Assembly (NCBI GenBank): GCA_947384285.1
Contig: CANDGI010000026.1
Coordinates: 1 to 38,611, forward strand
Direction: 5' to 3'
Length of the DNA stretch: 38,611 bases
Origin: an uncultured Lachnospiraceae bacterium
GTDB lineage: Bacteria; Bacillota; Clostridia; Lachnospirales; Lachnospiraceae
This document shows, one piece after another, positions 3,881 to 38,611 of this stretch; the first letter of the stretch is position 1, and each line of letters begins with the position of its first letter. The notes beneath the pieces are model-generated. The model did not search any database and was not told where the DNA came from. It saw nothing but the letters and a program-made list of their open reading frames with translations. Made by a program: the position numbers and the translations under genes.

Positions 3881-3882
3881 CC

Positions 3883-18582: not shown

Positions 18583-18637
18583 ACATTTTGTTCGGATGAA
18601 TAATTGCTTCTGTGAGAAGCGATTGGTTCTGAAGCAT

Positions 18638-18720
18638 GCCGGCGTGTCGGAATGGCAGACGAGGCAGACTCAAAATCTGTTGTGGGCAACCACGTGCGGG
18701 TTCAAGTCCCGCTGCCGGCA
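18638..18720 (+). tRNA. tRNA-Leu (anticodon CAA)
   Basis: The 83-base gene folds into a class II tRNA with a long variable arm. The acceptor stem pairs GCCGGCG with TGCCGGC, the discriminator is A, and the T arm is GCGGGTTCAAGTCCCGC. The anticodon loop CTCAAAA gives anticodon CAA for UUG codons. No CCA is encoded. The adjacent integrase makes its 3' end the likely attachment site of the element. Confidence 0.97.
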
Positions 18721-18732
18721 GTTCTTTTAGAT

Positions 18733-24200: not shown

Positions 24201-27200
24201 GGAGGCGGACACAAGTTTTCCTGCTTTGACTTTTGCAATGGCTTGGGTGAAGAGCTTTTTGTTCTTTTTGGAGACATCCTTTTTGTTTGCTTTGCGAATT
24301 TTGTTCCCATAAGAGGCGCGGTCTTTGCTTTTTTTGTTGTATGCAGACTGGAGGTTTTTCTGCCTCGTGTCTATGTTCTTTGCTTTATTGTTTAATAAGC
24401 GGTTCTTCCTGGATGATGTGGAAGCCGTGGACAGTTTTGCATCTGTTTTTTCGTCGGCGGTGTCCTTTGCGCTGTTTCCGGCTTCTTCATTCTGCTTTGC
24501 AAGGGAGGCGGATGCAGCAGCGTTTTCAGCCATGGACTTTGTTAAATCCTGTATGGATTCATTGTTTGAATTGATCCGTCCGTTGTACCCATGCCATGCT
24601 TCGGAGCCTTTTGTGACAGTCTTCTGGAGTTCTTTCAGCTTTTTGTTCTGCTTGATGATGTTTGCAATCTGGGACTGTGCGTTTTTATTAAGTTTTGCAT
24701 AGTCCTTTGCGCTTGCGGAGAACCCCCATGTTTCCTTGAAATCCATGGTGTTCTGGATGCGTTTGGCTGTGGATTCCAGTCTGCCCAGGAGCTTTTCGTA
24801 TTTGGTGATGAGGAGTTCTATTTTTTCACGGGCAAGCTCTTTCTGGGTCTTTTTGAGTTCTTCTAGTTTTTCCTGGCATTCCAGGGCTTTTTCATACCAC
24901 TCTTTGTAATTTTTGATCCGTTCTTTCAGCCCGTCATCCGCAACATCCGCAATATTGATGCTGCCATCCCGGACTTGTGCTGCCCAAGGCTCTTCCAATC
25001 CGATGCTGTTCGCCCTCGCAATGTACTTGTTATAACCCTGTCTCTGGATATCAATTTCCTTTGTTATTTCGGATACTGCCTTTTTGTATTCCCTTCCCCT
25101 GGCGGTAAAGCTGCGGAAGGTTTCTTCTGCGCGTGTCTTTAACCGTTCAATGGCTTTTTCCACACGGGAGATTGCAGTCTCAATGAAGTCAAACACTTCT
25201 ATGGATTCTTTTTCTTCTTTGCTGGAGCCGAATTTTCCAGAACCGGATTTCCCAGACTTCCCCGACCCTCCTGTGCCGCCTGATTTTGCATAAAACTGGG
25301 ATGCATCCAGCTTTGCACCTTCCAACTGTGCGGAAAGTGTGGATTTCAGCCCATTCTCAAAAGCATTCACCGCTACATCCCTTGCTGCGTTGCCGACTTT
25401 GCCCCCAAGCGTGTTTGTGTCGAACTGCATGGACTTGAAGTTCAGAAGCGCATTTGCAAGGGCTTGGATATAGGAAGTGGACGCGCCTGCTGCATTTGCG
25501 ATTGCAACAATCTGGTTCACGTCGTCCGTGGTGTCAATGGTGATGCTGTTCACGTCCATCTTGGAGATGGCAAGTGCTGCAAGGCTTTCAGAAGTTGCAG
25601 CGGCTTCTTGGTTTTCATGCAATAGCGCGCCAATCTCTTCCCATGTAACGTCAGAAAGTTTCCTTCCTGCAAGTGCCGTATTGTCTTTTGCGAGAGTAAG
25701 CCATTCTTCCTGCAAAGCAAGCCTGGAGGCTACTAATTCTGCTGCATTTACAACACCATTTTCCTCCAGCATTGCGACAGTGGCCTTCTCTGTTTCAGCG
25801 GTTAGATTATCCCAGATGCCGCTGCTGTCAATGACAGAGGTTGCAAGGTCGTCAAAGGCTTTCTGGCACGCGTTGATGTCATCCGGGTTCTTGGTGACGG
25901 TTTTGATAAAGTCGTCATAGACTTTCCCTGCGCCGCCGAAGACTTTTTCAAATTCTTCATTGTTCAGGATGGAAGACCAGTCAAATTCCTCCCCGTCCTG
26001 TACATCGTCGTAAACTTCCATGAGGGTTTTGAGGTTGTCGGACAGGGACTGCACGCCGTCCAGGGAGGATTTGTAGGATGGCGGTTCCGGCGCTTCTGTT
26101 TCTGAAATGTCTTTTTGCAGTATGCCCCATTCCGCAAGCAGCTCCAATACTTCCTGTATCCCTTCTGCATTGCCGTCCGTAATAATCCCGTATTCTTTTG
26201 CTTTATCAATCAGTGAGTTGAAAACAGCTTCCCCCTCCTGCAAATCCTCCGTCTGGAGCATTGCAAGGACATCATTTTCTGTTTTCCCTTGTAACCCGCT
26301 TATGTCAAAGTCAGGGATTATTTTTGTCTTGAATTCCCATTGCCCCACCATGGACTGTAATTCCGGGTGCATGGATTTGAAGTAGTCTGCAACCCCTGCG
26401 TCCCCGCTTTCCAACGCCATGGAAACTGCATCCGTGATTATTTCTGCATAATCCTCTGCTGCTTTTGCTGCTTCCTGTTCGTCTCCCAGAACTGCCGCAT
26501 CCTGGTATTTCTGGTAAGCCCCATTAATATCATTGAATGCGCTTTTATAAGCCGCCTTTTGGGATATCTCTTCATAAAGGATGTAACTGTCGCACATCTC
26601 TTTATAATTCTCTGAAACTTCTTTCGCGGCATTTGCAAGGTCTGTCAGATAATTCCTGAAATTATTAGTGGACAGTGGGTTTGCGTCGGAAAACATTTCC
26701 TGGAGTTCCAAAAGTTTTTCATGCATTTCACTTGCGTTCCCGGACAGTTCCACAAACGGGTTGTTGGAGGCTGTTCCTTTCGTTCCATAAGTGATTTCCA
26801 TCCCATTGTCTTCGAATAATTTCTTGAATTCTTCTATCTCTTCCGGGTTTAATCCGGTTGTGGCCACGGATAAATCCAGTTTCACCTTATAATCGCCATA
26901 TTCTGATAACATGCGGTCTATGTTGTCAGAGTATCCTTGGACAAAGTTTGCGGCGTTGTTTGCAAATCCGCCATCGTTGAATTCGTTCTTTGCTTCCTGC
27001 CACTGTTTCTGCGCTAATTTATCAAAAGCCTGTGACTGTTCGTTGACCACTTCCGTAATCAAGTCGATTGCGCTTTTCTCACTGCCGTATTTTTCGATTA
27101 ATTCGTCCTGGATTAACATAAGGGTTTTGCGGGCTTCTGTGACATCGGAGATGGAGGAGCTGGAATCATTGAGCACCGCCTGCAGCTCTTCCACTTTAGA

Positions 27201-29429
27201 TTTGTAGCTGTCAATGTCGGATTTTGCGCTGCTGAAAGTGTTGCTTACTTCATCTGCTTTCTGCGCAACGTCACCTGACACACGGATGAAGTTTGAAACC
27301 GCTGTTGCAACCGCCTGTATGCCAAGGCTTAACCCTAACGTTAATGCGGAATTTAAAAGGACTGTTTTAATCCTTAATGAATCCGTTGATACACCACAGG
27401 AAGCCAGATAGGATCGGTATCCTGCTAATGATGCAGGGGCTTCTACGGATGTTGTCTGGAGATATGCTTTTAGTTGTTCGTTGTTTTGGACAATTGCACC
27501 ACCAAATGTTTCAATATCTGCTGTACCAGATACTAATTTTCTATTCCAACCACTAATAGCCGTTTCAGCTTCCCTGAAATGTTTCTGCTGTGTCTTGAAT
27601 GCTGTAATATCAATACCCATAATATTTCCTTGAATATCCATCTTATGGGTATCCTTATTAAATACCTGCGTTATGCCATAATTCTTATTAAGTGCTGTCA
27701 TCCCTGCCTGAAATGTGGTGAGGATAACTGGGATTGCCCCTATTGTATCGGATAGTTTTTCAAACGACTGAATAGCATTGTCAAGGAATGACACGCCGCC
27801 TTTTATAGCATCCTTGTCTGTGATGGATGCCACAAAGCTGTCCCATGTATTCTGCAAAGAATTCATGCGGCCTTCCCATGAATCTGCGGTCTTATTTGCT
27901 TCCTCCAGTGCGGAGCCTGTGCCCTGTGAAAACTCGCCAACCATCTTTTCATATAAATCCCATCGGCTTAAAAGGGCTGATAGTGCGTTTGCATGGTATT
28001 TATTCCCAATGTCCGAAATTAACCCCTGTTTTTCTGCACTGTTATCTGGCAAGGAATTATAGACCTCTGATAAATCTTTCAGTATGTCCATCGGATTACG
28101 AAGTGTGGCAACCCCGTCTTTTATATATTCCAATTCCACGCCCAATGAATGGCATCTGGCTTCCACTTTCTTAAGCTGCTCTTCGTCAATCATTTCCCCG
28201 TCAAACTCGCCCGACACTTGCTGCAAATTTAATACAATACTCCTGAATGCCCTGCCCATTTCGGAGCCGCTTCTTTTTGTCGTTGCGATCATGGCCGCTT
28301 CTGCCGCCGTAAGTTCTTCTATAGCAACTCCCGCATTAGCCGCGAATGAAGCTGAAACACGTATACTATCGGAGATATCTGTCAATGACGCGCTGTTTTT
28401 GTTTGAAATATAGTTCGCCCCGTCAAGGGCAGCATTTAATTTTTCGACACTCCCGCCATATTTATATGCCGCATCCGTTGCCAGCAGGTAATTATTCGCC
28501 ATTTCTGCCGTCATATCGCCGCTACTTTGCGCCAATAATGAAAGCTGCCCAAGTTCCTTTGACAGTGTTTCGTACCCAGACCTTGCCATTTCCTGAACCG
28601 CTGTAAGGTAATTCCCCGAAACTTGGCCAAATTTGCTTGCAACAGCAAAGGCTTCATCCCCTAATTCCTTTAACTGCTGCTTTGTCATCTCACTGGTCTT
28701 GCTAATTTCTGTAAGTATTGTATCATTCGTTTTGAGTGTATTTAAAGATTGGCGGAATTTATTTACAGCAACAAATGAAAGCCCACAGTAATTTCCCACT
28801 TTAACAATATTTCCCAACATCCCTTTAATCCTGTCAGTCGTAGAAACAGCCGCATAGCCTGTGGCTCTTACACCTGATGTAAATACCTGGAACTGGTCTG
28901 TTGCATCCCTTAATTCATCCCTGTTGCTGACCGCTTCAATCACACCACGAATCCGTTCCGCCTCACCAAGCCAATAGGAAGATTCATTAATTTTTGTATG
29001 TTTATTTGTAAATGTAGCAAACTGGTTTAACAGTTTTTCTCTTTTTAGGTCAATATTTACGCTGATCGGATTCCTGTCCGCAAATTCCCTTGCCTGGGAA
29101 ACAGCGCGTCTTACCTGCGCGTTTAACCTATCGCCTGTACTGTTCAGATTGAGGTTAATATCCCTTGCCGACACATTCCTCAATGCATTGTTAATTTCCC
29201 TGTTCAACTGGCGGCTGTCCATCTTCGCCTGTATCTTTATCTGCCGGAGGTTCCCTTCCATCTGACGGATGGTCTGATTCACTCCATTCTTTGTGTCGCC
29301 TTTCGCCAGAATCCCGACAAGCCTTAATTTCCGTATGCTTTTCTCCAATTCCTTAATCTGGGCATTAATCTGTGTTTTGCTCTTCTGCTGATCCAACAAG
29401 GCCAACAATTCAATTACAAATTCATTCAA
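21147..29429 (-). CDS. Giant phage tail tape measure protein
   Basis: Tape measure proteins fill the tail tube of siphophages and set its length. At 2,760 aa this one is very large. Residues about 230-560 match the TP901-type core (EISKTSEMTKQQLKELGDEA, then AMIATTKRSGSEMGRAFRS). A hydrophobic stretch near residue 700 (ALTLGLSLGIQAVATAVSNF) may act in membrane insertion. The rest is helical and coiled-coil, with three divergent repeats of about 150 aa at roughly 1685-2120. The ATG at 29459 has no Shine-Dalgarno sequence; TTG 29429 follows AAGGAGG by 11 bases and is preferred. The 3' end is out of frame because of a C7 tract at 21195-21201; one base fewer would give about 2,826 aa. No tube, chaperone, distal tail or baseplate gene flanks it. 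Confidence 0.85.
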   Translation of the reverse strand: MNEFVIELLALLDQQKSKTQINAQIKELEKSIRKLRLVGILAKGDTKNGVNQTIRQMEGNLRQIKIQAKMDSRQLNREINNALRNVSARDINLNLNSTGDRLNAQVRRAVSQAREFADRNPISVNIDLKREKLLNQFATFTNKHTKINESSYWLGEAERIRGVIEAVSNRDELRDATDQFQVFTSGVRATGYAAVSTTDRIKGMLGNIVKVGNYCGLSFVAVNKFRQSLNTLKTNDTILTEISKTSEMTKQQLKELGDEAFAVASKFGQVSGNYLTAVQEMARSGYETLSKELGQLSLLAQSSGDMTAEMANNYLLATDAAYKYGGSVEKLNAALDGANYISNKNSASLTDISDSIRVSASFAANAGVAIEELTAAEAAMIATTKRSGSEMGRAFRSIVLNLQQVSGEFDGEMIDEEQLKKVEARCHSLGVELEYIKDGVATLRNPMDILKDLSEVYNSLPDNSAEKQGLISDIGNKYHANALSALLSRWDLYEKMVGEFSQGTGSALEEANKTADSWEGRMNSLQNTWDSFVASITDKDAIKGGVSFLDNAIQSFEKLSDTIGAIPVILTTFQAGMTALNKNYGITQVFNKDTHKMDIQGNIMGIDITAFKTQQKHFREAETAISGWNRKLVSGTADIETFGGAIVQNNEQLKAYLQTTSVEAPASLAGYRSYLASCGVSTDSLRIKTVLLNSALTLGLSLGIQAVATAVSNFIRVSGDVAQKADEVSNTFSSAKSDIDSYKSKVEELQAVLNDSSSSISDVTEARKTLMLIQDELIEKYGSEKSAIDLITEVVNEQSQAFDKLAQKQWQEAKNEFNDGGFANNAANFVQGYSDNIDRMLSEYGDYKVKLDLSVATTGLNPEEIEEFKKLFEDNGMEITYGTKGTASNNPFVELSGNASEMHEKLLELQEMFSDANPLSTNNFRNYLTDLANAAKEVSENYKEMCDSYILYEEISQKAAYKSAFNDINGAYQKYQDAAVLGDEQEAAKAAEDYAEIITDAVSMALESGDAGVADYFKSMHPELQSMVGQWEFKTKIIPDFDISGLQGKTENDVLAMLQTEDLQEGEAVFNSLIDKAKEYGIITDGNAEGIQEVLELLAEWGILQKDISETEAPEPPSYKSSLDGVQSLSDNLKTLMEVYDDVQDGEEFDWSSILNNEEFEKVFGGAGKVYDDFIKTVTKNPDDINACQKAFDDLATSVIDSSGIWDNLTAETEKATVAMLEENGVVNAAELVASRLALQEEWLTLAKDNTALAGRKLSDVTWEEIGALLHENQEAAATSESLAALAISKMDVNSITIDTTDDVNQIVAIANAAGASTSYIQALANALLNFKSMQFDTNTLGGKVGNAARDVAVNAFENGLKSTLSAQLEGAKLDASQFYAKSGGTGGSGKSGKSGSGKFGSSKEEKESIEVFDFIETAISRVEKAIERLKTRAEETFRSFTARGREYKKAVSEITKEIDIQRQGYNKYIARANSIGLEEPWAAQVRDGSINIADVADDGLKERIKNYKEWYEKALECQEKLEELKKTQKELAREKIELLITKYEKLLGRLESTAKRIQNTMDFKETWGFSASAKDYAKLNKNAQSQIANIIKQNKKLKELQKTVTKGSEAWHGYNGRINSNNESIQDLTKSMAENAAASASLAKQNEEAGNSAKDTADEKTDAKLSTASTSSRKNRLLNNKAKNIDTRQKNLQSAYNKKSKDRASYGNKIRKANKKDVSKKNKKLFTQAIAKVKAGKLVSASTINGIVGALKSAKGKEYKELNALLSYCISYNASKNAEEENKLNLEMYALTAQEEKKALRQEQLSNALDANQSKADRNTLPNAETTSAKNHNIDTQMRLSNANANAQTQSAKNAAKDRKTAAGKASFAKEKSYQKLKDRKLKKRLKKAAAAIKAGKKIDADSLKAVKEYCQKYLKNNLSYYYNCEAYNEAVENELSAKEAETLAKAQAYAAALQAKREKAENTVSGRDAENELYAATAKNQTFAGAKNKYVDRQISNISQNASTYQSAYNASATDFHSAKNAINKSSGNAVINEIKTKFASRNILIPADCLEKAYAVSDSFGLACSNYNEALESMNAAKAAADLYAQTSKTEKAALALEKMENIDKDYGHRISVFEQRATRLNNSMDIAQAKGYQTSRKYYERLAENEEKTNQTLAQKRKDLADSLNQSVSTGAVTKFSDEWYEACGKIDDVTNAIEESAVSLAEFQKQMRQIEWDNFDYLESRMKNTISETDFLIGELSREDTAREDIGWLTDRGKAAAFLHAGNYESYRKQAKDYASEIQKINKELEKDPYSKELVDRKDELLKSYRECTKAAQEEKYAVIDLYAQGYEALSGRLENLISDYEELLDKEKDAFDYQKNIADKAKELAGIRKQMEAYAGDMSEEARAKIQTLKVSLEEAERDLQETQYDKYLSGTKEMLTDLQENFDESIQIIVDSLAENFGKLEEGMERTASETCKSILSLMTGIGYTPTEEFGKLLDGTGIASSVAAVLAELKDFHAKMTAYADRMASSANTNTAVDGGNPETTNGSPGSSNAAANKPASNAGADGAGSVPKGGLEKPSVIQIPGNAGAIQDGKDGQEAQRKTEAAKQAQAIKELTIVNEYLDRHLKSTKSKRGELSDVNKKLYDKYGKKILTTKQMKELAKRLGVTYDSQKSSGSLYKKLKSIGVKGFHAGTRNIPYGQPAFLGENGDELHFKKDEGILTTVGQGDMVFTNEMSKRLWEISQMPTEFLMEKFGVPGIPPKDCHTHDPSHPGIHY

Positions 29430-29460
29430 TGTTTCTGTTTCCTCCTTAATTTTAAGCATA

Positions 29461-29489
29461 ATAAAAGAGAGACCATGAAATAATCTCCC
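29461..29489 (-). terminator. Weak terminator-like hairpin before the tape measure start
   Basis: On the minus strand GGGAGA (29484-29489) pairs with TCTCTC (29467-29472, one G-U), followed by TTTTAT. It sits just upstream of the preferred TTG start and could attenuate transcription into the tape measure gene. Confidence 0.35.
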
Positions 29490-29514
29490 TAAAAATTTAC
29501 AGTATTCTTTTTAA

Positions 29515-29736
29515 TTAGCATATCCTTTTGCAGCGTTTACACTGAAACAGCAATTTACCACGCTTCATTCCCACAGCTTCAAAATCAGACGAATTACAAT
29601 ATCTGCATGTCTTTTGGGATTGTTTTTTAATCAATTCATCTCTTTTATCTTTTGGCAATGTATCAAGATATGAATAATATACGTGCTCAACAAGGAATGC
29701 AAACGCAAAGCACCCAATAACAATCAACAGCACCAT
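29515..29736 (-). CDS. Membrane-anchored zinc-ribbon protein
   Basis: The 73-aa protein has one N-terminal membrane helix (VLLIVIGCFAFAFLVEHVYY) followed by a charged linker and a four-cysteine zinc ribbon (CRYC and CKRC, 19 residues between pairs). It is not a known family to me. It starts at ATG 29736 with GAGG 8 bases upstream, 16 bases after the next gene, and lies directly upstream of the tape measure gene in the same operon. Confidence 0.65.
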   Translation of the reverse strand: MVLLIVIGCFAFAFLVEHVYYSYLDTLPKDKRDELIKKQSQKTCRYCNSSDFEAVGMKRGKLLFQCKRCKRIC

Positions 29737-29752
29737 ACACTATACCTCATAA

Positions 29753-30238
29753 TCAGAACTCCCTTTTACAACGGTTGCATACCCTTTTTGCTTTCCCGCT
29801 CCCTAAGAAGCCCGTCCAGATAGAAAATCCACGGTTCATCATGGTATATTCCGTACCTCCGCACCTTGGGCAACGGATGGGGGTTTCTTTCGGCGGCGCA
29901 AATGCATCTGGGACGTATTTCCTTAGTTCCTTTTTTGCAGCATCACTTTTTCCATTTATATCCCTTGGTGGAGCTTGGAATTCTTTTATTAGGTAAAATA
30001 TATCTCCATCCTTTTGCAAATCTATAGGTTTTTCCTCTAAAGATGTTATTTCAGTTTTATTACCCTTTTTATCTTTCAACCCATAATAATACCAAGTAAT
30101 CCAATCAGATCTATCTTCTGCATCTACATTTTCCTCTTCATCATCAAATGATGCTCCACAAACAGGGCAACTCTCAAAATTTTTTGCGACTTCAAATTTG
30201 AATTCAGCACCGCATTTCCCACATGTAATCTTTGCCAT
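29753..30238 (-). CDS. Double zinc-ribbon protein
   Basis: The 161-aa protein has two zinc ribbons. The N-terminal one is CGKCGAEF ... CPVCGASF. The C-terminal one is CPRCGG ... CNRCKREF. Between them lies an acidic linker and a segment with WITWYYYGLKDKKGNKTEIT. The C-terminal ribbon resembles that of the neighbouring membrane protein. No family is recognised. ATG 30238 follows a GGGGGTG site, and the strong promoter at 30285-30313 drives it, so it is the first gene of the tape-measure operon. A role in DNA, RNA or protein binding during late expression or assembly is inference from the ribbons only. Confidence 0.6.
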   Translation of the reverse strand: MAKITCGKCGAEFKFEVAKNFESCPVCGASFDDEEENVDAEDRSDWITWYYYGLKDKKGNKTEITSLEEKPIDLQKDGDIFYLIKEFQAPPRDINGKSDAAKKELRKYVPDAFAPPKETPIRCPRCGGTEYTMMNRGFSIWTGFLGSGKAKRVCNRCKREF

Positions 30239-30284
30239 ACCCTACACCCCCAATCACTCTTTCTTCCATATATATTATGTTTTC

Positions 30285-30313
30285 ATTATACCACCTCCAT
30301 TTGATTGATGCAA
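30285..30313 (-). promoter_or_regulatory. Promoter of the zinc-ribbon/tape measure operon
   Basis: Minus strand TTGCAT (30308-30313), 17-base spacer, perfect TATAAT (30285-30290) with extended TGG. The first start codon is 47 bases downstream. The weak -35 with a strong extended -10 would suit activation. Confidence 0.65.
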
Positions 30314-30663
30314 TCATATGTTTGCTTCCTTTCCATATTTAAATATCATTTTTCCACATCATCCAAAACACGAACATACTTTCCGCTTTACACCATTTCA
30401 CCATTGTGCTATCATTAGTTCCATATTAAGTTTTTATTGTATCATGTTGATATTTTACACTTCTTTCAAAAAACGTAAAATTTTGCTTATTTTTTCAAAA
30501 ATTTAGTGTTTTTTTAAGTTTTTCTCGTTTTTTTTTGCTTATTTTTTGGTTTTCTATAATTTTTACTATTTTAGGGTTCCTGTTACTATTTGATTTTCAG
30601 AATTATAATTTCATTTTCAGAATCCGGATTCCTGAGAAATGGGTGCTTGGTTTACTTGGCTGC
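30314..30663. other. AT-rich gap with an imperfect palindrome
   Basis: No convincing gene is seen in these 350 bases, which are T-rich on the plus strand (several runs of 6-8 T at 30470-30550). At 30615-30639 there is a near-perfect palindrome around AATCCGGATT, and its ATTTTCAGAAT arm occurs twice (30593-30603 and 30613-30623). It could be an operator for the HTH protein or the 3' hairpin of that gene. Confidence 0.4.
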
Positions 30664-30852
30664 TTAATTATTCAAAAGATAGTCCTGCAATTTCACGAAT
30701 AAATGTGGGTACAGATCAATTTTATTGTTTTTGAATTTACTAAGGGTATCTTTATTCATCCCAATTACCTTACATATATAACTGGCTTTTTCTCTTTCTA
30801 AACGTTGATGTAACATTGTTCGTAATTCTTCTTGTGTCAAAACTTCTTTCAC
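30664..30852 (-). CDS. Small helix-turn-helix protein
   Basis: The 62-aa protein carries a Cro/XRE-like helix-turn-helix: an N-terminal helix, then ASYICKVIGMNKDTLSKFKNNK as turn and recognition helix. Its size is that of a small phage repressor or activator. The frame begins at GTG 30852, only 2 bases after AAGGA. A TTG at 30840 is better spaced and gives 58 aa, so the start is uncertain. It lies at the boundary between the late-type operon and the regulatory right arm, which fits a control function. Confidence 0.6.
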   Translation of the reverse strand: MKEVLTQEELRTMLHQRLEREKASYICKVIGMNKDTLSKFKNNKIDLYPHLFVKLQDYLLNN

Positions 30853-30871
30853 CTTCCTTTTTATTCATGGA

Positions 30872-30987
30872 TAATATTTTCTATAAAAAAATTGAAACTA
30901 ACACCCAGCCTAGGAGTTGTAGAGGCTCCGTGTATCGGCTGGGCGGCCTACACGCATATTGGGAGTATATGCAGCAGGGCTTTTTAC
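30872..30987 (+). ncRNA. Candidate structured RNA
   Basis: A locally GC-rich stretch in AT-rich DNA forms nested hairpins: CCCAGCC (30904-30910) with GGCTGGG (30937-30943) enclosing GGAG/CTCC, then GCATAT (30954-30959) with ATATGC (30967-30972), then GGGC followed by TTTTT (30978-30985 region). A -10-like TAATAT at 30872-30877 precedes it. This could be a small plus-strand RNA of about 100 bases diverging from the HTH gene. The first stem is also followed by a T-run on the minus strand, so direction is not certain. Confidence 0.35.
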
Positions 30988-31293
30988 ATCTGTTATTTGT
31001 TTTGAATGATTTCTGTACGCCTAAGTGGAGTTTCAGCGCACATAATGGCTGATGTGGTTTTGAGGCACACACCAGCCTGATTACATTATTTAATTGTATG
31101 GATTTATGTAAACTGCCATATGCAGCAGTTTGCGTTTGGCAAGGGGAATTTTGCAAACAACCTTTTCCACATGCTGTTCTTCCCCTGTGCCGTCATAGTA
31201 GATATTTAAAACAAAAAACATTTTGAGGAAACAAATTTTTCTTTCTTGTCCCTCTATTTTATATATACTGGATTATATAAGTAAGTGCACCTT
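30988..31293. other. Hairpin-rich non-coding stretch
   Basis: Further stems occur here: GGCTGATGTG (31047-31056) with CACACCAGCC (31068-31077), whose mismatch becomes G-U on the minus strand; AAACTGC with GCAGTTT around 31110-31131; and GTTTGC with GCAAAC around 31129-31157. Together with 30904-30985 they make a stretch of about 250 bases dense in stems, suggesting one larger structured RNA or an origin-like region. Confidence 0.4.
31090..31221 (-). CDS. Possible 43-aa protein
   Basis: A minus-strand frame from ATG 31221 encodes 43 aa with a protein-like stretch (EEQHVEKVVCKIPLAKRKLL). There is no Shine-Dalgarno sequence and it overlaps the hairpin-rich stretch, so it may be chance or a decayed gene. 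Confidence 0.2.
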   Translation of the reverse strand: MFFVLNIYYDGTGEEQHVEKVVCKIPLAKRKLLHMAVYINPYN

Positions 31294-32895
31294 TTAGCCG
31301 ACATTATACATAAAAATTTCATGATTTTTATTTGCACTACTAATAACACGCCTTTCTTTCGGCACTTCATAATATATCATCCTCTCTTTATCACAAAAAT
31401 AGAAATTCATATACCCACCATAAACCATTACATTCTCCTTATTTATTTTATAATGAATTGGTTTTTTTACATTTCTGTTTGACCACAATTTAATATTTAA
31501 AAAAATATCTTGGAAATAAGCCTCCCAAAACCCATTATCCCAATCTTTAAGGCTTTTCATTTTATACCCACCAAAGTGATTCTTCCTATATTCATTTTCT
31601 TTCTTTTGATAACATGCTATCATTGTATTTGCTATGTTAAATAATGCTTCCCTTTTATCATCCACTAAATCGTAATCGTTGTCTGATATTAAATTAACCA
31701 TATCATACTTCTTTCCCTTTCCTTTAGAGATAACATCAAGAACCATTTCTTCATATTTTTTTATTATATTGAAATAATTATCAAAATCACTGCCATTCAT
31801 ATCACTATTAATAAAATCAATGCTTTTTCCATATATTTCATAACCTGCCCTGCCAAACATTTTGATATACGACTTTTCATTCAGCTCATATAAACACCGC
31901 CCCGATTCTTTTTTATAAATACCCATACTTTCTTTTGCTTTCCCTATTTTATAATTTAATGAATAGAATAAATGGTCTAACAACCGTTGTTCTATAAGTT
32001 CCATATCCGCTGATATGTTTTCCTGATCAACATTCAGATTGTGCCTGTACCTGATTATTTCCTGTAATGTTTCTTGTGTCACAGGACGCATACCAAGACC
32101 CAATTCCATATCATCATCTTTGTTCACTATAAAAGTATCTTTACAATTCATTATGGTTTCGATGATTGCTTTAATGTCACAAGCGTTTGCCTTAAAAAGC
32201 ATACATACATCATTTCTTTGTAACCATTCCAAGCAAGTTGAATAAGGAGTTATCCGCGACACCTGGCCGTCCATTTCTGTCCAGATCCGTTTTGAATATT
32301 GGTCAAAATATGAAACTTCTTCCCCATTTTTCATATCTATGTACGTTTCTGGCACATTCTTACATAGGACTCTATTATAATTCCCTATTTCTTTCGATAA
32401 GTAGTATTTAATGTTTCCCAATAATGTAACTCCATTTATAATATCAATATTACTTCCCGACAGCTTCCCTTGGAATAATTTAACCACTATTTCTTGCATT
32501 GCCTCTTCCAACTCCAAAGTATCATATTTACCACTATGGAACTTTTTATATCCATGGGAATCTATCTTCTTGCCATTCTCATAACCTGTAAAGATGCCAT
32601 TTTTACTATAATAATATTTCGCCTTACTTACCTTATCATTTAAACATGAAAAGGAAAACACCACTTTTAATTTACGACTATTACGCTTATATTCTATTTC
32701 ATTTTCAACTAACCCTGCATCTAAAACATTCTCTGTATGGGACAATTTATATTCTTCTTCTAATTCCACTATCCGCTTAGTCTCGCCGACTTTTTTCCCA
32801 ACTTCCATAAATACCTCGTCTAATGCTGATTTATCACCTGACTGGTATCGGATATAATTTTGATATAGCCTTTCCACTTCTTCTGACTTTTTCAA
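31294..32895 (-). CDS. Uncharacterised 533-aa protein, faintly sigma-factor-like
   Basis: No family is firmly recognised. Residues 1-30 (EEVERLYQNYIRYQSGDKSA) and 125-185 (LELEEAMQEIVVKLFQ, then LLGNIKYYLSKEIGNY) are spaced and styled like region 2 of sigma-70 factors, where a similar Q-E-I-x-x-K-L-[FW] segment contacts the -10. The likeness is weak and no clear region 4 helix-turn-helix is seen. The rest is helical and charged, with few aliphatic core repeats. It starts at TTG 32895 with GGAGG 10 bases upstream. It follows the 184-aa gene by 206 bases that hold two hairpins, so it may or may not share the SOS-type promoter at 33949-33977. Confidence 0.5.
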   Translation of the reverse strand: MKKSEEVERLYQNYIRYQSGDKSALDEVFMEVGKKVGETKRIVELEEEYKLSHTENVLDAGLVENEIEYKRNSRKLKVVFSFSCLNDKVSKAKYYYSKNGIFTGYENGKKIDSHGYKKFHSGKYDTLELEEAMQEIVVKLFQGKLSGSNIDIINGVTLLGNIKYYLSKEIGNYNRVLCKNVPETYIDMKNGEEVSYFDQYSKRIWTEMDGQVSRITPYSTCLEWLQRNDVCMLFKANACDIKAIIETIMNCKDTFIVNKDDDMELGLGMRPVTQETLQEIIRYRHNLNVDQENISADMELIEQRLLDHLFYSLNYKIGKAKESMGIYKKESGRCLYELNEKSYIKMFGRAGYEIYGKSIDFINSDMNGSDFDNYFNIIKKYEEMVLDVISKGKGKKYDMVNLISDNDYDLVDDKREALFNIANTMIACYQKKENEYRKNHFGGYKMKSLKDWDNGFWEAYFQDIFLNIKLWSNRNVKKPIHYKINKENVMVYGGYMNFYFCDKERMIYYEVPKERRVISSANKNHEIFMYNVG

Positions 32896-33031
32896 TAATT
32901 AATTCCCTCCACATCCACAATTTAAAAAATCATCCACAACAACGCTTACACTTATATATTCTCTTTTCCTTCTCCAAAAGCATCATAACTTAACAGATAA
33001 TCCATATAATCAAAGGATCAGACAGTCGGAA

Positions 33032-33073
33032 CGGAAAATTTCTCCGAAGAATGGTATTGTTTTCCATAATACC
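33032..33073. other. Two small hairpins between the 184-aa and 533-aa genes
   Basis: GGTATT (33053-33058) pairs with AATACC (33068-33073), and a palindromic CGGAAAATTTCTCCG lies at 33032-33046. No U-run follows on the minus strand, so they may be a weak terminator or a processing site. Confidence 0.35.
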
Positions 33074-33101
33074 GATATGACTTGTCCATCATATTTTGAA
33101 A

Positions 33102-33656
33102 TCAGAAAAACTTAACTTCTCCTTCATTGGACGCAAACTTAAATGCTTTCATCATACTTTCATACAAACCAATAAACGATGCTTTCTCTTCTAACCGCCC
33201 ACTATATAACTTGGCATCTTTATAATATTTTTTTAATTCAGCATATGCTTTTTTTGATGTTTCCATATCAACTACACGTTTATAATTCTCAAAATCAATT
33301 AATTCTTGAAAAGCCAAATCTTTCTTAAAATCGTAAAGGTTGTTTAGCCATTCATAATAATTTTCAATGTAACAGCTGTGTACCATATATGATCTTTCTT
33401 TGGAACTGTTTACCTTCTCATAAGCAACAATGTCAACTACACAATCACTTTCAAAATATTCTGTTTCTCTATGTATCACTCTAAATTTTTTATAAAAAAT
33501 CTCCTTTTCAAAATTCATATAATAATAACCATTAAAAACACTATATATATCACCCAAATCATTACATTCGCATATGCTATTTTTATCAAACTGAAAAGTC
33601 TGACCATCTATTAACCTACTTACAAATTCTTTTCTAGGTTTACACAATCCAAACAT
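33102..33656 (-). CDS. Uncharacterised 184-aa protein
   Basis: The protein is soluble, mixed alpha/beta and rich in Tyr, Phe and Glu (DIYSVFNGYYYMNFEKEIFY, then YEWLNNLYDFKKDLAFQELI). No known motif or membrane helix is visible. The C-terminal third is helical. ATG 33656 has GGAGG 8 bases upstream. It is the first clear gene downstream of the LexA-box promoter at 33949-33977, about 285 bases away, so it is a candidate damage-induced gene of the element. Confidence 0.55.
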   Translation of the reverse strand: MFGLCKPRKEFVSRLIDGQTFQFDKNSICECNDLGDIYSVFNGYYYMNFEKEIFYKKFRVIHRETEYFESDCVVDIVAYEKVNSSKERSYMVHSCYIENYYEWLNNLYDFKKDLAFQELIDFENYKRVVDMETSKKAYAELKKYYKDAKLYSGRLEEKASFIGLYESMMKAFKFASNEGEVKFF

Positions 33657-33693
33657 TCATCCATCCTCCAATCATTTAATTACTCTCTACTAT

Positions 33694-33804
33694 TTACTTC
33701 TCCATCCATTCCCACATTTTTCTCAAAACTGCGAAAAACATATAAAATCCAAACAATATTAAAATATCTTCAAAAAACCAAAAAATCCGTAACAAAAACA
33801 ACAC
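33694..33804 (-). CDS. Possible 36-aa hydrophobic peptide in the SOS leader
   Basis: From GTG 33804 a frame of 36 codons reads as one hydrophobic helix (WFFEDILILFGFYMFFAVL) followed by a charged, tryptophan-rich end (RKMWEWMEK). It ends 38 bases before the 184-aa gene. A 16-aa frame (33855 to 33805) stops with TAG directly before the GTG in the same phase, which would allow coupling. No good Shine-Dalgarno sequence precedes either. T-rich DNA favours such frames by chance, so support is limited. Confidence 0.3.
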   Translation of the reverse strand: MLFLLRIFWFFEDILILFGFYMFFAVLRKMWEWMEK

Positions 33805-33811
33805 CTAAAGC

Positions 33812-33832
33812 AGTCTCATTTTTGAAACTGCC
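33812..33832 (-). other. Hairpin in the SOS leader
   Basis: GCAGTCTC and GAAACTGC form a short stem with one mismatch and an AT loop within the 5' leader of the SOS-type transcript, overlapping the 16-aa frame. It could affect leader translation or early termination. Confidence 0.35.
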
Positions 33833-33926
33833 CTAAATCCATGAATCATTCCCATATGCTATTTCCGTTTAATGAATTTCTTTGAATCTGCGTGTTGTAT
33901 GTTTTGAATAGTTACAAAAATAATTC

Positions 33927-33977
33927 AAACATACGTTCTGTATTTGTAATTATATAGAATGTATGTTCTGCTGTCAA
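33927..33977 (-). promoter_or_regulatory. SOS-type promoter with two LexA boxes
   Basis: Minus strand: perfect -35 TTGACA (33972-33977), 17-base spacer, perfect -10 TATAAT (33949-33954). In the spacer lies GAACATACATTC (33957-33968). Just downstream of the -10 lies GAACGTATGTTT (33927-33938). The Gram-positive LexA consensus is GAAC-RNRY-GTTY; the second box fits it fully and the first has one mismatch. Box centres are 30 bases apart, about three helical turns. The terminator at 33991-34019 insulates it from the gene to the right. It reads toward the 184-aa gene. Confidence 0.75.
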
Positions 33978-33981
33978 GTGC

Positions 33982-34019
33982 AAAAAAATACCAGCCACCT
34001 TATTATTTTTGATGGCTGG
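33982..34019 (-). terminator. Terminator of the 188-aa membrane protein gene
   Basis: CCAGCCA (33991-33997) pairs with TGGCTGG (34013-34019). On the minus strand the hairpin is followed by TATTTTTTT. It ends the gene at 34027 and sits directly before the SOS-type promoter. Confidence 0.8.
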
Positions 34020-34026
34020 CCAATGT

Positions 34027-34593
34027 TTAATATAATGTATTCATTTCTTTAAGAAGTAACCCTATACTTTTATCTATTACCTCATTCGCATTTATCACCG
34101 TTTTATTTATTTCATCTGTTGCCATTGTAGTATCTGCCTGCTTCAAATATTGCTCTCCTATCTTTACAAGGTTATCTGAACAATTTTTCATTTCCTGTTT
34201 AAAATAAGTTAATTTAATATCACAATTAAAAGATTCAAGCATAACATTGTATGTATCTTTCCAAGATGCAATACAGCCATTCATGTTGCTAATAGATTTG
34301 AGGAAACCATTATACCTTTTTCTTCGTTCATCAGGGTTCCTTTTATTTAATGCATTTTCAAGATCAAGTGATACTTCCATAACATCATTTTTTATCTCAT
34401 GTAACCAATTTAATATTTTCACAAAATAATCAAGTTGCAGATTCTTTTTTCTACATATTAAATCTCTTTTCTTACTCAAAGAATCATTCATAAATATGGC
34501 AAACAATGCTACAACTGTTGGCATAATACCTTTAAACAATTCTAATGATAAATCAATCCACGGATAACATTTTACAAAATCTTGATACGTCAT
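34027..34593 (-). CDS. Membrane-anchored protein, unknown function
   Basis: The 188-aa protein has one N-terminal membrane helix (FKGIMPTVVALFAIFMND) followed by a long, mostly helical cytoplasmic domain (residues 45-188) with charged stretches. No catalytic motif is visible. The frame extends to 34650, but ATG 34593 has GGAGG 6 bases upstream and is chosen. Proteins of this shape are common as accessory genes in mobile elements, but no role is known here. Its own terminator follows at 33991-34019. Confidence 0.6.
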   Translation of the reverse strand: MTYQDFVKCYPWIDLSLELFKGIMPTVVALFAIFMNDSLSKKRDLICRKKNLQLDYFVKILNWLHEIKNDVMEVSLDLENALNKRNPDERRKRYNGFLKSISNMNGCIASWKDTYNVMLESFNCDIKLTYFKQEMKNCSDNLVKIGEQYLKQADTTMATDEINKTVINANEVIDKSIGLLLKEMNTLY

Positions 34594-34646
34594 ATAATCC
34601 CTCCAAAAATAATATGACTGAATCATACCACACCAACCACCAATAT

Positions 34647-34931
34647 TCAATTGTCAAAGTCCCAAAATTTACCAAATTTCAACATCAATCCAGTTCCAAC
34701 ACCTGCTAATTTTGCAAGTTTTGAATTTGTTTCATTATCTGTGCGATTATTCTGGACTTCCACCAAATTTGGTGTAATTCCACTTTTTTGGTCGTATTGA
34801 TTACCATGATATTCTGCTTGTTTTTCTTTTGCTTTCTTTTCGTAGTAAGCACGTTTTTTCTCAACAACTGCAATTCTTTGAAAGGAAGATAAGTTTCTTC
34901 TTCCAAGTTGAATATCAAGCATCCATTCCAT
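34647..34931 (-). pseudogene. Remnant of a ParB-like protein
   Basis: The 94-aa frame contains WMLDIQLGRRNLSSFQRIAV, followed by KKAKEKQ and NSKLAKLAGVGT. In element-borne ParB-like proteins a QLGRRNL-type block directly follows the ParB nuclease domain, and a short helix-turn-helix (KLAKLAGV) follows it. Here the N-terminal ParB domain is missing and the end (FGKFWDFDN) is abrupt, so both ends appear lost. It has a usable GAGG site before ATG 34931, and expression as a small DNA-binding protein is possible. It is not a piece of the intact ParB gene at 36086-37054, which lacks this block. Confidence 0.55.
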
Positions 34932-35249
34932 CTTTATCATCCTCGGGAAGCTAATCCACTTACGATATATAGTACATATCTAATATTTTTATTCTATATA
35001 TTGTATTCTTATTTGGTTAAAAGACACATTTCATTGACAGAACTTATAAATTTAGAACCTATCTTTTATCTAGTCATAATTCCCAATACTTACATAACTG
35101 ACTTTTCCCTTACATTTTTATGTAGATATTTTTCATATAAAAGTTTCAAACTAATAAATCATTTTCTTTACTTTTTTTATTGTATATATTACAATACATA
35201 TAATAAATTCTTAGCTTTACATAGTTTTTATAATGAAAGGAATAAATCT
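34932..35249 (+). promoter_or_regulatory. AT-rich divergent intergenic region with a promoter
   Basis: This gap separates a leftward remnant from a rightward membrane gene. At 35179-35195 ATTGTA and TACAAT form an inverted repeat, and just after it lies a -10 TATAAT (35199-35204) with a weak -35 TTTATT at 35176-35181. The repeat overlaps the spacer, as an operator would. The rest shows no gene or clear structure. Confidence 0.45.
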
Positions 35250-35723
35250 ATGTCAAATGAACAACAGAATAATCAACCATTATCCGAAGAATATGCTACT
35301 ACTATTTCATTACTTAATATATATTTAGAAGAATGGCGTTTGCGTGATCAATTAATTTGGTCACAAATGTATAGATTTTTTTATGCAATACTTATAATAA
35401 TATTACTTCCAAATCTTGATTTTTATTTAAAATCAAATTTACCAAGTTTACCAATATCTATTTTTAGAATATTGGGGTTGATTTTTTCTTTTATATTTCT
35501 TTATGTTTCATGGGGATATACTGTTCGACTTCATGCAATAACTGATACATATCAAAATATAATCAATACACTCCCAAAAGAATATCAAAGAAAAAGTATT
35601 CAAGAGTTTAAATATAAAGGAATAAACATTGGAAAATTTTTTAAGCTGCGATTAGATCGTGTGATATGTATAACATTATTTCTTCTTCTACTTTCTTTAT
35701 CATTAATTTTAATGATCATTTAA
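35250..35723 (+). CDS. Small multi-helix membrane protein
   Basis: The 157-aa protein has about four membrane helices in two pairs (FFYAILIIILLPNLDFYL and ILGLIFSFIFLYVSWGY; then ICITLFLLLLSLSLILMII at the end). The soluble N-terminus and a loop with YQNIINTLPKEYQRKSI are charged. The layout vaguely recalls RipA-type small membrane proteins, but I cannot assign it. The long frame starts at 34908, but ATG 35250 has GAAAGG 9 bases upstream and is chosen. It is the only plus-strand gene of the element's right part and stands alone between its own promoter and terminator, a layout typical of cargo genes. Confidence 0.6.
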   Translation: MSNEQQNNQPLSEEYATTISLLNIYLEEWRLRDQLIWSQMYRFFYAILIIILLPNLDFYLKSNLPSLPISIFRILGLIFSFIFLYVSWGYTVRLHAITDTYQNIINTLPKEYQRKSIQEFKYKGINIGKFFKLRLDRVICITLFLLLLSLSLILMII

Positions 35724-35768
35724 AACTTCATAAAAATCCTATCTCATCATCCTATAACCACAAACCCA

Positions 35769-35806
35769 GTGCCTTTGACACCACCAGTCTAAAGGCACAT
35801 TTTTTA
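35769..35806 (+). terminator. Terminator after the membrane protein gene
   Basis: GTGCCTTT (35769-35776) and AAAGGCAC (35791-35798) form a perfect 8-bp stem followed by ATTTTTTA. It separates the plus-strand gene from the convergent 80-aa gene. Confidence 0.8.
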
Positions 35807-35812
35807 TTATCA

Positions 35813-36055
35813 TCATTCCTTCTTATTTCCCTCCAACCATTCAGCCATATCAATAATCTCCGTCTTGCCACTACAATTTACCAGCCTAACCCTAAAATCT
35901 TCAAAATATGAAATGTCCCACAATTCACTCTCTTCCACATCATCAATATTCAGATCCGTTTGTTTTGCTTCTAAATATGAATGCAGCCATTGAATGCTTG
36001 TTACTTCATAAACCTTATTTGCTACTGATATATATTTTATTTTTGTGTTGTTAAT
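35813..36055 (-). CDS. Unlisted 80-aa protein with probable AUU start
   Basis: A minus-strand frame of 80 codons has a protein-like sequence (KIKYISVANKVYEVTSIQWL, then FEDFRVRLVNCSGKTEIIDM and AEWLEGNKKE), but it has no ATG, GTG or TTG near its start. A perfect GGAGG (36065-36069) lies exactly 9 bases before ATT at 36055, so AUU, a rare but known initiation codon, is the best start. The next upstream in-frame codon set ends in TAG. It lies 30 bases downstream of the ParB gene, in the same operon. No family is recognised. An alternative is a gene whose normal start codon has mutated. Confidence 0.55.
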   Translation of the reverse strand: MNNTKIKYISVANKVYEVTSIQWLHSYLEAKQTDLNIDDVEESELWDISYFEDFRVRLVNCSGKTEIIDMAEWLEGNKKE

Positions 36056-36085
36056 TGCTTGAATCCTCCACTAATCAAATGTTTT

Positions 36086-37054
36086 TCATTCCTTTTTATA
36101 TTGCTTATGTAATTCACTTATTTTTTCATCCATCTCATTCTCTGTTATTTTCCCATTTATTTTATCCCGCACAACATCATACATTTTATTCATAATCATC
36201 TGATTGTGCTTTATTACATTAAGCCGCTCATCTGTTAAGTAATGGGTAATATCTCCACTCTTATCGCCATAATTAGTGTCAAATAATGTATCTAACCAAA
36301 ATTGTGAAATATACCAATCGCTGCTTCTTGATTTCATATTAGATATTAAGAAAAGATATAACTTCAATTCTTCATCCGTATACTCTTTTCTATATTTTTC
36401 TTCCTGGCATACATAACGGCATTTAACAGTTGTTAAGCCTAAATCCCTACAAGCTCTTACCCTTTCATGACCGTCAATAATTGTTTTATCCCGTGCTATC
36501 AATACAGGACACGTGATTCCATACTTATTTATATTATTAAGAAACATGATCCAATCCGCACCAGTACGCATACCAAAATATTGTTCATAATCAGGTAACG
36601 GTCTTAAATCCTTAATACAGATTTCATAAATTGATTCGTCTAACTTTTTATCAACCACACTTTCTGCAATCTTCTGGTTTTCATTAATAGTTTTTTTAAT
36701 AACCTTTTTTATTTCTCTTGTAGACATTGATTTTAAATCATGATTCTCAATAAATTCTTCTCTTTTTTCGGTTGGCACGTCTAATAACAAACCAACTTTT
36801 GTTACCTCCAAATTGGAAATCGCTTGCGAATTTGTGCCAAATTCTTTTGCAATCCTCATAAACTGATTCGCCGTTCTTTGACTAAAAGCAACTCTATTTT
36901 CCAACCATGAACCCCATTCTCCATGAGATAACCGCTTTTTCGCCTCTATTAACTTATAACCAATCTGAATCATATTTTCTGCCGTTTGATTTTTTAGTGT
37001 AATGATTTCCTTTTCAATTTTCTCTAATTCTGTTTTTACAATAACTGTATTCAT
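36086..37054 (-). CDS. DUF3102/ParB-like protein
   Basis: The 322-aa protein combines a DUF3102-like N-terminal domain (LKNQTAENMIQIGYKLIEAK, then HGEWGSWLENRVAFSQRTAN, about residues 15-70), typical of mobile elements, with a ParB-type nuclease domain near residues 150-215. That domain shows IKDLRPLPDYEQYFG and the conserved IIDGHERVRACRDLGLTTVKCR. The C-terminal 100 residues are helical. Such proteins act in partition, replication or transcription control of elements; no ParA is in view. ATG 37054 follows AGGAG by about 12 bases. The 80-aa gene follows in the same operon. Confidence 0.75.
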   Translation of the reverse strand: MNTVIVKTELEKIEKEIITLKNQTAENMIQIGYKLIEAKKRLSHGEWGSWLENRVAFSQRTANQFMRIAKEFGTNSQAISNLEVTKVGLLLDVPTEKREEFIENHDLKSMSTREIKKVIKKTINENQKIAESVVDKKLDESIYEICIKDLRPLPDYEQYFGMRTGADWIMFLNNINKYGITCPVLIARDKTIIDGHERVRACRDLGLTTVKCRYVCQEEKYRKEYTDEELKLYLFLISNMKSRSSDWYISQFWLDTLFDTNYGDKSGDITHYLTDERLNVIKHNQMIMNKMYDVVRDKINGKITENEMDEKISELHKQYKKE

Positions 37055-37184
37055 ATAATTACCGCTCTCCTTTATTTATCACTTTGTTTAAACCAACCGC
37101 TCCTAAAATCAAATGGCAGAGATAAAGAAGTCCCTTGTAATCCCCTTTACCGTCCGACTGACAGGCCATTATTCCACATTAAAA

Positions 37185-37892
37185 TCATTCAACAATCTGA
37201 ATATGGCTTACTTTTTTCGGCTTCAAGATATTGCCAGTCTGGTTATTCTTCATGATTCCTGTTTCTTTATCCATTGTATATACCGGGACTCCCCGATCCT
37301 CAAAAAACTTCTCCATTATCCCTTTGCCAGTCTGTGCCTTATACATTGCACTCATTGCACTTGTATATTCCATGTAAGCATGTCTCAAATCAGCGTTATA
37401 ATAATCCCACAATAGTTCGGATAATTCATCACGGCCAATCGGTTTATCCAAATCCATGTTATTCAAAACTTCCATAGTGGAGAAATAATCTTTCTCTTCC
37501 CACTTATCACCTTTGTAATATTTTTCTATCGGGAATGCAGTTACGAAATTCCTCAATGTCAGGCATCCTAAAATCGTAAATATGCTGTCAATCACCGTAA
37601 ACCTAACCTGTTCTTCCGCCAACGTCCTTCCTTTATCAATGCCAAGTTTCATATTCTCCCTTGTAACATCACGCATAGAGCAGATATATTTGATGCCAGT
37701 AAGTCCAATTTTTGCAAGTTCATCTTGTGGCAAGTCACATATTTTGCCCTTTCTTCCTGTGCATGATTTCTCCAATGCTGAAATATACTGGCGTTTCCAG
37801 CATTCATTTAATTTAGCAACTCGGTAAACACGATCCGTTTCTTTGCTTTTATCTTTATCTGTTGAATTGATTATTGTAAATTTACTGCTCAT
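37185..37892 (-). CDS. Uncharacterised 235-aa protein
   Basis: No family is recognised. The protein is soluble and mostly helical, with segments VRFTVIDSIFTILGCLTLRNFVTAFPIEKYYKG and DELSELLWDYYNADLRHAYM (quoted in part), and a basic C-terminus. ATG 37892 has AGGAG 10 bases upstream. It lies between ParB and ClpX on the same strand, and the three may form one maintenance or early operon. A replication or regulation role is only inferred from position. Confidence 0.5.
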   Translation of the reverse strand: MSSKFTIINSTDKDKSKETDRVYRVAKLNECWKRQYISALEKSCTGRKGKICDLPQDELAKIGLTGIKYICSMRDVTRENMKLGIDKGRTLAEEQVRFTVIDSIFTILGCLTLRNFVTAFPIEKYYKGDKWEEKDYFSTMEVLNNMDLDKPIGRDELSELLWDYYNADLRHAYMEYTSAMSAMYKAQTGKGIMEKFFEDRGVPVYTMDKETGIMKNNQTGNILKPKKVSHIQIVE

Positions 37893-37960
37893 ATAATTAT
37901 TTCTCCTATATTCTGTATTTGTGGACGATAGCTTTTCGTTGACGACTTATTTTATTCCAC

Positions 37961-37973
37961 CCGAAAGTTTCGG
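37961..37973. other. Short hairpin after the clpX-like gene
   Basis: CCGAAA-G-TTTCGG forms a small palindrome directly after the stop of the ClpX-like gene (37982). It lacks a U-run; a weak terminator is possible. Confidence 0.3.
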
Positions 37974-37981
37974 CTCGGATT

Positions 37982-38611
37982 CTACGCAATTTTCTTATTC
38001 CATTTACTATAAATCACTGCTTCCTCAATTCCATCCACCACGCCAGGAGTTATAACAACCTTTTTCGCATCTGGCATATCTGGCACTTTAAACATAATAT
38101 CTTTCAGAAAAGTTTCAATAATGCTCCTTAATCCTCGCGCGCCTATTTTTCGTTCGTCTGCTTTAGATGCTATTTTATTTAATGCCTCTTCTGTTACTTC
38201 CAGTTCCATGCCATCCATTCTGAATAATTCCTGATACTGCTTTACAATGGCATTCTTTGGCTCTGTCAATATCCTAACCATATCTTCGATACTTAACGGA
38301 TTCAAAGTACAGATTACAGGAAGCCTCCCTATTAATTCAGGCATAAGTCCAAATGAATTTAAATCCTTTTGCTGCACATCCGATAAATCCACTTTACAGT
38401 CATCATGCACACCTTTAACATCTGCGCCAAACCCGATAGATTTACCCTTATTATTTCTCTGCTCAATAATCTTTTCCAGCCCATCAAAAGCACCACCGCA
38501 AATAAACAAAATATCGCTCGTATCAATGTTTACACATTCTCCTTGTGGATGTTTTCTGTGTGTAGACGTCACAGATGATACAAGGATATTGAATTGCACC
38601 ATGATTCTACA
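37982..38611 (-). CDS. ClpX-like AAA+ unfoldase, C-terminal part (cut by window edge)
   Basis: About 210 C-terminal residues of a ClpX-type unfoldase are visible. Present are the RKH loop (RKHPQGE), sensor 1 (ILFICGGAFDGLEKII), the arginine-finger segment PELIGRLPVI (usually PEFIGRLPVI) and sensor 2 in IGARGLRSIIETFLKDIMF. The Walker motifs, zinc domain and IGF loop would lie beyond the edge. Compared with typical ClpX, about seven residues are missing between VQ and RKH, near the second pore loop. Host clpX normally sits with clpP, tig or lon; here the neighbours are element genes, so this is an element-encoded paralogue. The first ATG in view (38602) is internal. Confidence 0.8.
   Translation of the reverse strand, partial: CRIMVQFNILVSSVTSTHRKHPQGECVNIDTSDILFICGGAFDGLEKIIEQRNNKGKSIGFGADVKGVHDDCKVDLSDVQQKDLNSFGLMPELIGRLPVICTLNPLSIEDMVRILTEPKNAIVKQYQELFRMDGMELEVTEEALNKIASKADERKIGARGLRSIIETFLKDIMFKVPDMPDAKKVVITPGVVDGIEEAVIYSKWNKKIA

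Follow-up and report, generated by a model that had tools for sequence, protein, structure and literature searches.

A predicted LexA-controlled SOS promoter with a terminator-like leader hairpin in an integrated phage-like element of a Lachnospiraceae genome

The window, by which we mean the whole stretch of 38,611 nucleotides that was analysed, carries part of an integrated element whose left end lies at a tRNA-Leu gene (18637–18721) and an integrase gene (18804–20063) and whose right end is off the contig. We call the element phage-like from its sequence. Recombinase genes follow its tape-measure-like gene, as they do in two related loci (L050 and L054), and no tail-tip genes were recognisable in these three; in D16-36 (L051) tail proteins follow the tape measure, so some of the relatives are phage-like. 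Relatives were found through the 235-aa gene of the window (37185–37892), which gave 14 loci (L015–L028). The terminator, promoter and pair of LexA-type boxes described here recur in L022, L024, L053 and L056, referred to below as the four further copies. The features of the window are as follows.

33989–34020, tail to about 33981, minus strand: intrinsic terminator of the upstream 207-aa gene (10-bp stem, 11-base loop, -17.2 kcal/mol)
33972–33977, minus strand: -35 element TTGACA, identical in the four further copies
33957–33968, minus strand: LexA box 1, GAACATACATTC, in the spacer; all 12 bases are shared by L053, and L024, L022 and L056 have related boxes at this point
33949–33954, minus strand: -10 element TATAAT from the promoter scan, 17-base spacer from the -35
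33927–33938, minus strand: LexA box 2, GAACGTATGTTT, after the -10; an 8/8 box at the equivalent place in the four further copies
33657–33942, minus strand: untranslated leader of about 285 nt, its start placed by inference about 7 nt after the -10
33803–33838, minus strand: conserved terminator-like hairpin, ATTTAGGGCAGTTTCA-AAAA-TGAGACTGCTTTAGGT, 16 pairs, then GTTGTTTTTGTTA
33102–33656, minus strand: 184-aa protein, product of the first gene behind the leader; a GGAGG stands 7 nt ahead of its ATG
31294–32895, minus strand: 533-aa protein, at the position of the phrog_8308 protein of relatives
21147–29459, minus strand: 2770-aa tape-measure-like protein (PF10145, E 7.1e-14)

A preliminary description, made from the letters of the sequence, had proposed a consensus sigma-A promoter with a 17-bp spacer that carries two SOS boxes, one in the spacer and one just after the -10, and that follows a terminator. 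All of this is present. The promoter at 33977–33949 on the minus strand scores 12/12 and is the only site to do so among 61 promoter-like sites between 29500 and 38611, where 49.5 are expected. Box 2 is a full fit to GAAC-RNRY-GTTY, the only one on the contig, while box 1 departs from it at one base, an A for G in the GTTC half; an operator of the GAACN4GTTC type that marks Gram-positive SOS promoters overlaps the promoter, with box 1 one base off. The box starts are 30 bases apart, or 2.9 turns at 10.5 bp per turn, so the proposed placement on one face of the helix is roughly right. The terminator ends in a T-rich tail, TATTTTTTTG, and was missed by a simple scan for loops of up to 8 bases. 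The claim that the promoter reads into the 184-aa gene stands in part: the frame does lie downstream, but the -10 ends 292 bases ahead of its ATG (33656), and the leader with its terminator-like hairpin lies between.

A single box of this kind means little. Full fits to the bare box number 21, counted strand-wise, in the 3.23 Mb genome, fewer than the 29 found for a reversed-pattern control, and many of them lie in coding sequence; the bare box is not rare, and the weight therefore rests on the arrangement and its conservation. We examined the arrangement in 400 first-order Markov copies of positions 18601–38611. A promoter of at least 10/12 whose spacer contains a box of at least 7/8 and whose -10 is followed by a second such box occurs in 0/400 copies and once in the window; the strict box has a mean of 0.13 per copy against 1 observed, and promoters of 12/12 number 7 in total over the 400 copies. 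With the same arrangement conserved in four further loci, we give almost no credence to the reading that the boxes fell by chance on a constitutive promoter.

In scans with LexA matrices, proposed as a check in the preliminary description, the ranks of the two boxes depend on the matrix. When the matrix draws on relatives alone (11 boxes), the window boxes rank first and second, and each score is expected 0.017 times. With seven sites of the host assembly they rank first and fourth, and a score like that of box 1 is expected 1.2 times. Two of these seven sites lie on contig C59 and are a relic of a mobile promoter; when the ranking was repeated with the five recA and lexA sites only, the boxes ranked second and sixth, so that, judged by the few known host sites, box 1 is weak. 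The C59 site (G000; L037, 992/1026; L062) is a third host two-box promoter, located beside a toxin–antitoxin pair that is 83–86% identical to one in L022, and it matches the promoters of related elements. Given this neighbour and this match, we count it as mobile and not as core SOS.

Most prophages sense DNA damage via their own cleavable repressor or antirepressor. We recognised neither, nor a portal, capsid or terminase, among the window proteins scanned. The boxes might be operators of an element-encoded repressor that uses a LexA-like palindrome, in which case induction would depend on that repressor. The operators are strong and repeated in the element; the part of it that was scanned has no recognisable repressor gene, and its right end is off the contig. 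The host genome argues otherwise. It has a lexA gene (E 6.8e-24), whose absence the preliminary description had named as grounds for giving up LexA control, and a recA gene as well. The host recA promoter consists of TTGACA and TAATAT, with GAACATTAGTTC immediately behind this -10 element. The lexA region contains a divergent TTGACA–TATAAT promoter into a LysM-protein gene, in which the final base of the -35 is also the first of AAATGTATGTTC (6/8), and AAACAAATGTTC (7/8) follows 31 bases on. The same box is thus found at the host recA gene and lexA region, placed alike in element and host promoters, and in sequence the element promoter is built like those of recA and lexA/LysM. We regard a repressor of the element's own as improbable, and direct control by host LexA as very likely from the sequence. 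Because the host has lexA and recA, because its SOS promoters are similar and because the box pair is conserved in relatives, the promoter is likely to be repressed by host LexA and induced by DNA damage.

Conservation of the operator extends over the four further copies and L015, and in L021 it is decayed. The spacing of the box pair is 30 in the window, L024 and L053, 31 in L022 and 36 in L056. Box 1 is 7/8 in the window, L024 and L053 and 6/8 in L022 and L056, and box 2 is 8/8 in the four further copies and 7/8 in the window. Upstream of the promoter in the four further copies, and of the boxes in L015, stand similar terminators whose end reads GGT-A-T(5 or more). The boxes of L015 are three in number, all 8/8 and in the corresponding position, and the scan recognised no promoter on the box strand. 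The decayed copy in L021 reads TTGATA-17-TATAAT, with two 6/8 boxes 23 apart. No cassette was found in L016, L023, L026 and L027 (41% identity) despite at least 4 kb of sequence after the 235-aa gene, and L027 has a single promoter-less LexA-type site. In L017 and L025 the sequence beyond the 235-aa gene amounts to only 575 and 2491 bases. In L018, L019, L020 and L028 the match to the 235-aa protein is partial (37–39%), and these loci have single sites at most. The exact promoter pattern is rare, as among 397 family genomes it occurs in the window's own genome only and in no viral contig; the stricter box pattern likewise matched no viral contig. A search of 392 genomes of the order with the leader and promoter DNA returned 10 short matches besides the own genome; the realigned ones share 14–29 bases or nothing, and we set these aside as chance or single boxes.

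The leader is partly conserved in the four further copies and in L026. Its hairpin has a folding energy of -18.6 kcal/mol and a z-score of -6.9 against base shuffles. A hairpin model (R1) trained on the window, L022, L024 and L026 matched the unseen L053 (E 2.5e-11), and among the 397 family genomes its sole match besides the own genome was L056 (E 5.4e-9). As a test of prediction, both unseen copies proved to have the terminator, TTGACA, a box, TATAAT and a box directly upstream. The promoter is upstream of five of the six hairpins. The exception is L026, which keeps the leader hairpin and a homologue of the 184-aa gene and has no LexA boxes; together with L016, L023 and L027, which lack the cassette, it indicates that LexA control is dispensable in the family. 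R1 did not find the hairpin in L015 or L021, although both have boxes. Across the four training copies no pair is changed on both sides; each change affects one side of a pair, and L026 has two broken inner pairs. The hairpin resembles an imperfect terminator and probably acts in attenuation or processing.

The genes that follow vary, but the hairpin and its U-rich tail stay conserved. This would also suit a leader that is itself the functional product, either as a small RNA of about 140 nt, induced in the SOS response and with its end at the hairpin, or through a 36-aa hydrophobic frame (33804–33694) that starts in the 3' arm of the hairpin. The tail, GTTGTTTTTG, is a poor terminator tail, and Rfam gave no match up to E 1 in 29000–38611. 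The frame, which we considered as a conserved SOS membrane peptide gene, is not kept in the leaders of L022, L024, L026, L053 and L056, and we rejected it in that role. A functional leader product is in our judgement rather unlikely; we prefer a leader that attenuates or is processed ahead of the coding genes.

The first of these genes encodes the 184-aa protein, which among the loci compared has a homologue only in L026 (64% identity). It matches no Pfam or PHROG family; the L026 copy reaches only sub-threshold matches, to PF18273 (E 0.0014) and to two PHROGs (about 0.005). We considered the 184-aa protein as a known antirepressor and rejected this, as it has no family match and no relative in viral contigs or phage records. 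A match in G121 (39% over 73 residues, with two stops inside the frame) was judged to be chance. By sequence comparison the 184-aa gene is not the usual target of the cassette; elsewhere the cassette is followed by other genes. The 533-aa protein had no Pfam or PHROG match and no relatives were found for it. Structure models of the 184-aa and 533-aa proteins have mean pLDDT values of 32.8 and 32.2 and are useless. A 62-aa protein of the window has counterparts in L015, L022 and L024 (28–46%) and a weak match to a CII-like family, and a 161-aa protein has sub-threshold zinc-ribbon matches. The tape-measure-like protein was matched in 6 of the 8 genomes or records searched, the own genome included. 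No strong terminator was predicted from the 184-aa gene to 29500, where the minus strand has only two 5-pair candidates, so transcription perhaps reaches the tape-measure-like gene. Weaker LexA-like sites lie ahead of the 161-aa/tape-measure unit in four elements (window, 30372 and 30312; L024, 11888; L054, 817; L022, 18933), and not in L058; they are possibly a second SOS input, or chance.

In relatives, the unit behind the boxes holds a different protein. A phrog_8308 protein of 947–1112 aa is encoded by the first gene after the leader in L024, L053 and L056/L058 and by the fourth in L015 and L022, where GmrSD-like and two ParB-like genes lie between the LexA boxes and the phrog_8308 gene (L015, 12785–15954; L022, 12194–15028). 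The phrog_8308 family, which has no named function, was matched in L015, L022, L023, L024, L026, L053 and L058. A DxDxD metal-binding motif is present in all six rows of the protein alignment and in L058, and the protein with this motif lies downstream in five box-bearing relatives (L015, L022, L024, L053 and L058). The L015 protein matches PF05183, the RNA-dependent RNA polymerase family (E 3e-17), which the proteins of L053, L022, L024, L023 and L026 do not. The L024 protein reaches phrog_4291, annotated 'RNA-dependent RNA polymerase', at E 0.005, and the L015 protein alone reaches the solved RNA-dependent RNA polymerase 2 at E 0.02; the profile of the phrog_8308 alignment matched no solved structure. 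These features suggest that the protein of the relatives is probably a two-barrel RNA polymerase. In several relatives a tape-measure gene follows the phrog_8308 unit on the same strand. The polymerase-like gene also occurs in L023 and L026, without LexA boxes, and by eye only in L027.

The genome of the window gave no match to the phrog_8308 alignment, in an assembly that is 83% complete and an element that runs off the contig; as a positive control, G606, which is absent from the alignment, was matched at 2.2e-92. We considered the 533-aa protein as a diverged polymerase and rejected this, as it cannot be aligned with the phrog_8308 alignment (hhalign probability 0).

These findings bear on what the unit is for. 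It could be a damage-response or accessory (cargo) unit under LexA control, in which the 184-aa protein acts in the SOS response without phage release. The 184-aa gene is lineage-specific, the genes after the cassette vary among relatives and include GmrSD-like and ParB-like genes, and the window's assembly has no recognised gene of the phrog_8308 type. Set against this are the phrog_8308 protein in the five box-bearing relatives and the tape-measure gene downstream on the same strand in several. We take the cargo unit seriously and rate it somewhat below an even chance. The lytic switch put forward in the preliminary description is plausible, as is a late-gene role, given that a tape-measure-like gene lies downstream and that relatives have a polymerase-like gene.

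We conclude with good confidence from the sequence that the integrated phage-like element has an SOS promoter here, predicted to be repressed by host LexA and induced by damage, with a probably attenuating leader before the 184-aa and 533-aa genes. In the model we favour, host LexA would bind the spacer box and the box over the transcription start and thereby block RNA polymerase. Upon DNA damage, LexA self-cleavage stimulated by RecA would free the promoter. The leader hairpin and U-rich stretch would then probably stop part of the transcripts early, as an attenuator or processing site, and read-through would yield the 184-aa and 533-aa proteins and might continue to the tape-measure-like gene. 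Since five box-bearing relatives have the phrog_8308 protein in the unit, damage may ancestrally have switched on phage transcription machinery and this in turn late genes. More tentatively, and as a reading that we hold to be less likely than not, gut Lachnospiraceae phages of one family may have placed their late programme under host LexA. A portable cassette of terminator, double-box SOS promoter and attenuator hairpin would then stand before the phages' own two-barrel RNA polymerase, which, once switched on by DNA damage, would transcribe the tail genes; in the window the slot would be taken by the 184-aa and 533-aa genes, which may do the same job otherwise.

Phage promoters under host LexA are of a kind already known from SPbeta and GIL01. 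In SPbeta, yolC and yolD have pairs of GAACN4GTTC boxes 30 bases apart (-127/-97 and -64/-34), LexA binding was measured with a Kd of 3.9 nM, and the yolD boxes lie one beside and one after the -10 (PMC8270828). SPbeta is similarly a prophage of a Gram-positive host with box pairs 30 apart, but box 1 of the window is about 10 bases further downstream than in yolD. SPbeta has its own RNA polymerase, YonO, for late genes, no box is listed for yonO in the SOS-box table, and lexA can be deleted without activating the prophage (PMC8270828). The boxes described here differ in that they head the unit that in relatives holds a polymerase-like gene, behind a conserved hairpin leader. At promoter P1 of GIL01, host LexA represses directly via SOS boxes (PMC4551915; PMC6182141), much as we predict for the element; LexA holds the phage lysogenic, and mutation of dinBox1 commits it to the lytic cycle (PMC4551915). 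The GIL01 boxes are downstream of the start, one of them a half-site, and the phage protein gp7 helps LexA (PMC4551915; PMC6182141), whereas no gp7-like helper was identified in the element of the window.

Clostridial LexA operators were searched as GAACnnnnGTTT/GTTC and GAACnnnnnTTT/nTTC (PMC4234289), patterns that cover both window boxes; the regulon described there comprises host genes, and the word 'phage' is absent from the main text of that paper. The phrog_8308 protein of the relatives resembles single-chain two-barrel phage RNA polymerases (PMC10770324) in its DxDxD motif and, for L015, its match to PF05183. The likeness is remote: the other members miss PF05183, and none was found in the window's genome. 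Among open PubMed Central papers, searches on YonO with SOS, on LexA with phage polymerases and on TubZ in Lachnospiraceae prophages returned nothing describing such a cassette. To the extent that these searches reach, two things are new: a promoter of this type is followed by a conserved hairpin leader, and its unit includes a polymerase-like gene. Host LexA itself apparently governs a promoter whose unit, in relatives, includes a polymerase-like gene, and the hairpin leader may be a second gate; this offers a way of predicting which gut prophages respond to DNA-damaging drugs.

Several other features of these elements may be recorded. Between the 97-aa and 322-aa (DUF3102) genes of the window, about 1.1 kb (34908–36054) has no convincing gene, and positions 37982–38611 encode a ClpB/AAA-like protein (PF10431, PF07724) that is cut by the contig end and is conserved in most relatives that reach that far. 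A second LexA-type promoter, with the order box, TTGACA, box in the spacer, TATACT, is present in three relatives (L053, 5588/5621; L059, 7818/7851; L022, 2101/2124), and the C59 site of the host chromosome is a relic of this promoter. In L053 (Parablautia muri) the second promoter precedes a TubZ/FtsZ-like gene (PF00091) and a small frame that resembles a helix-turn-helix protein, and the same locus carries Lar-like restriction alleviation and AbiH-like abortive infection genes (786–2087 and 3860–5161).
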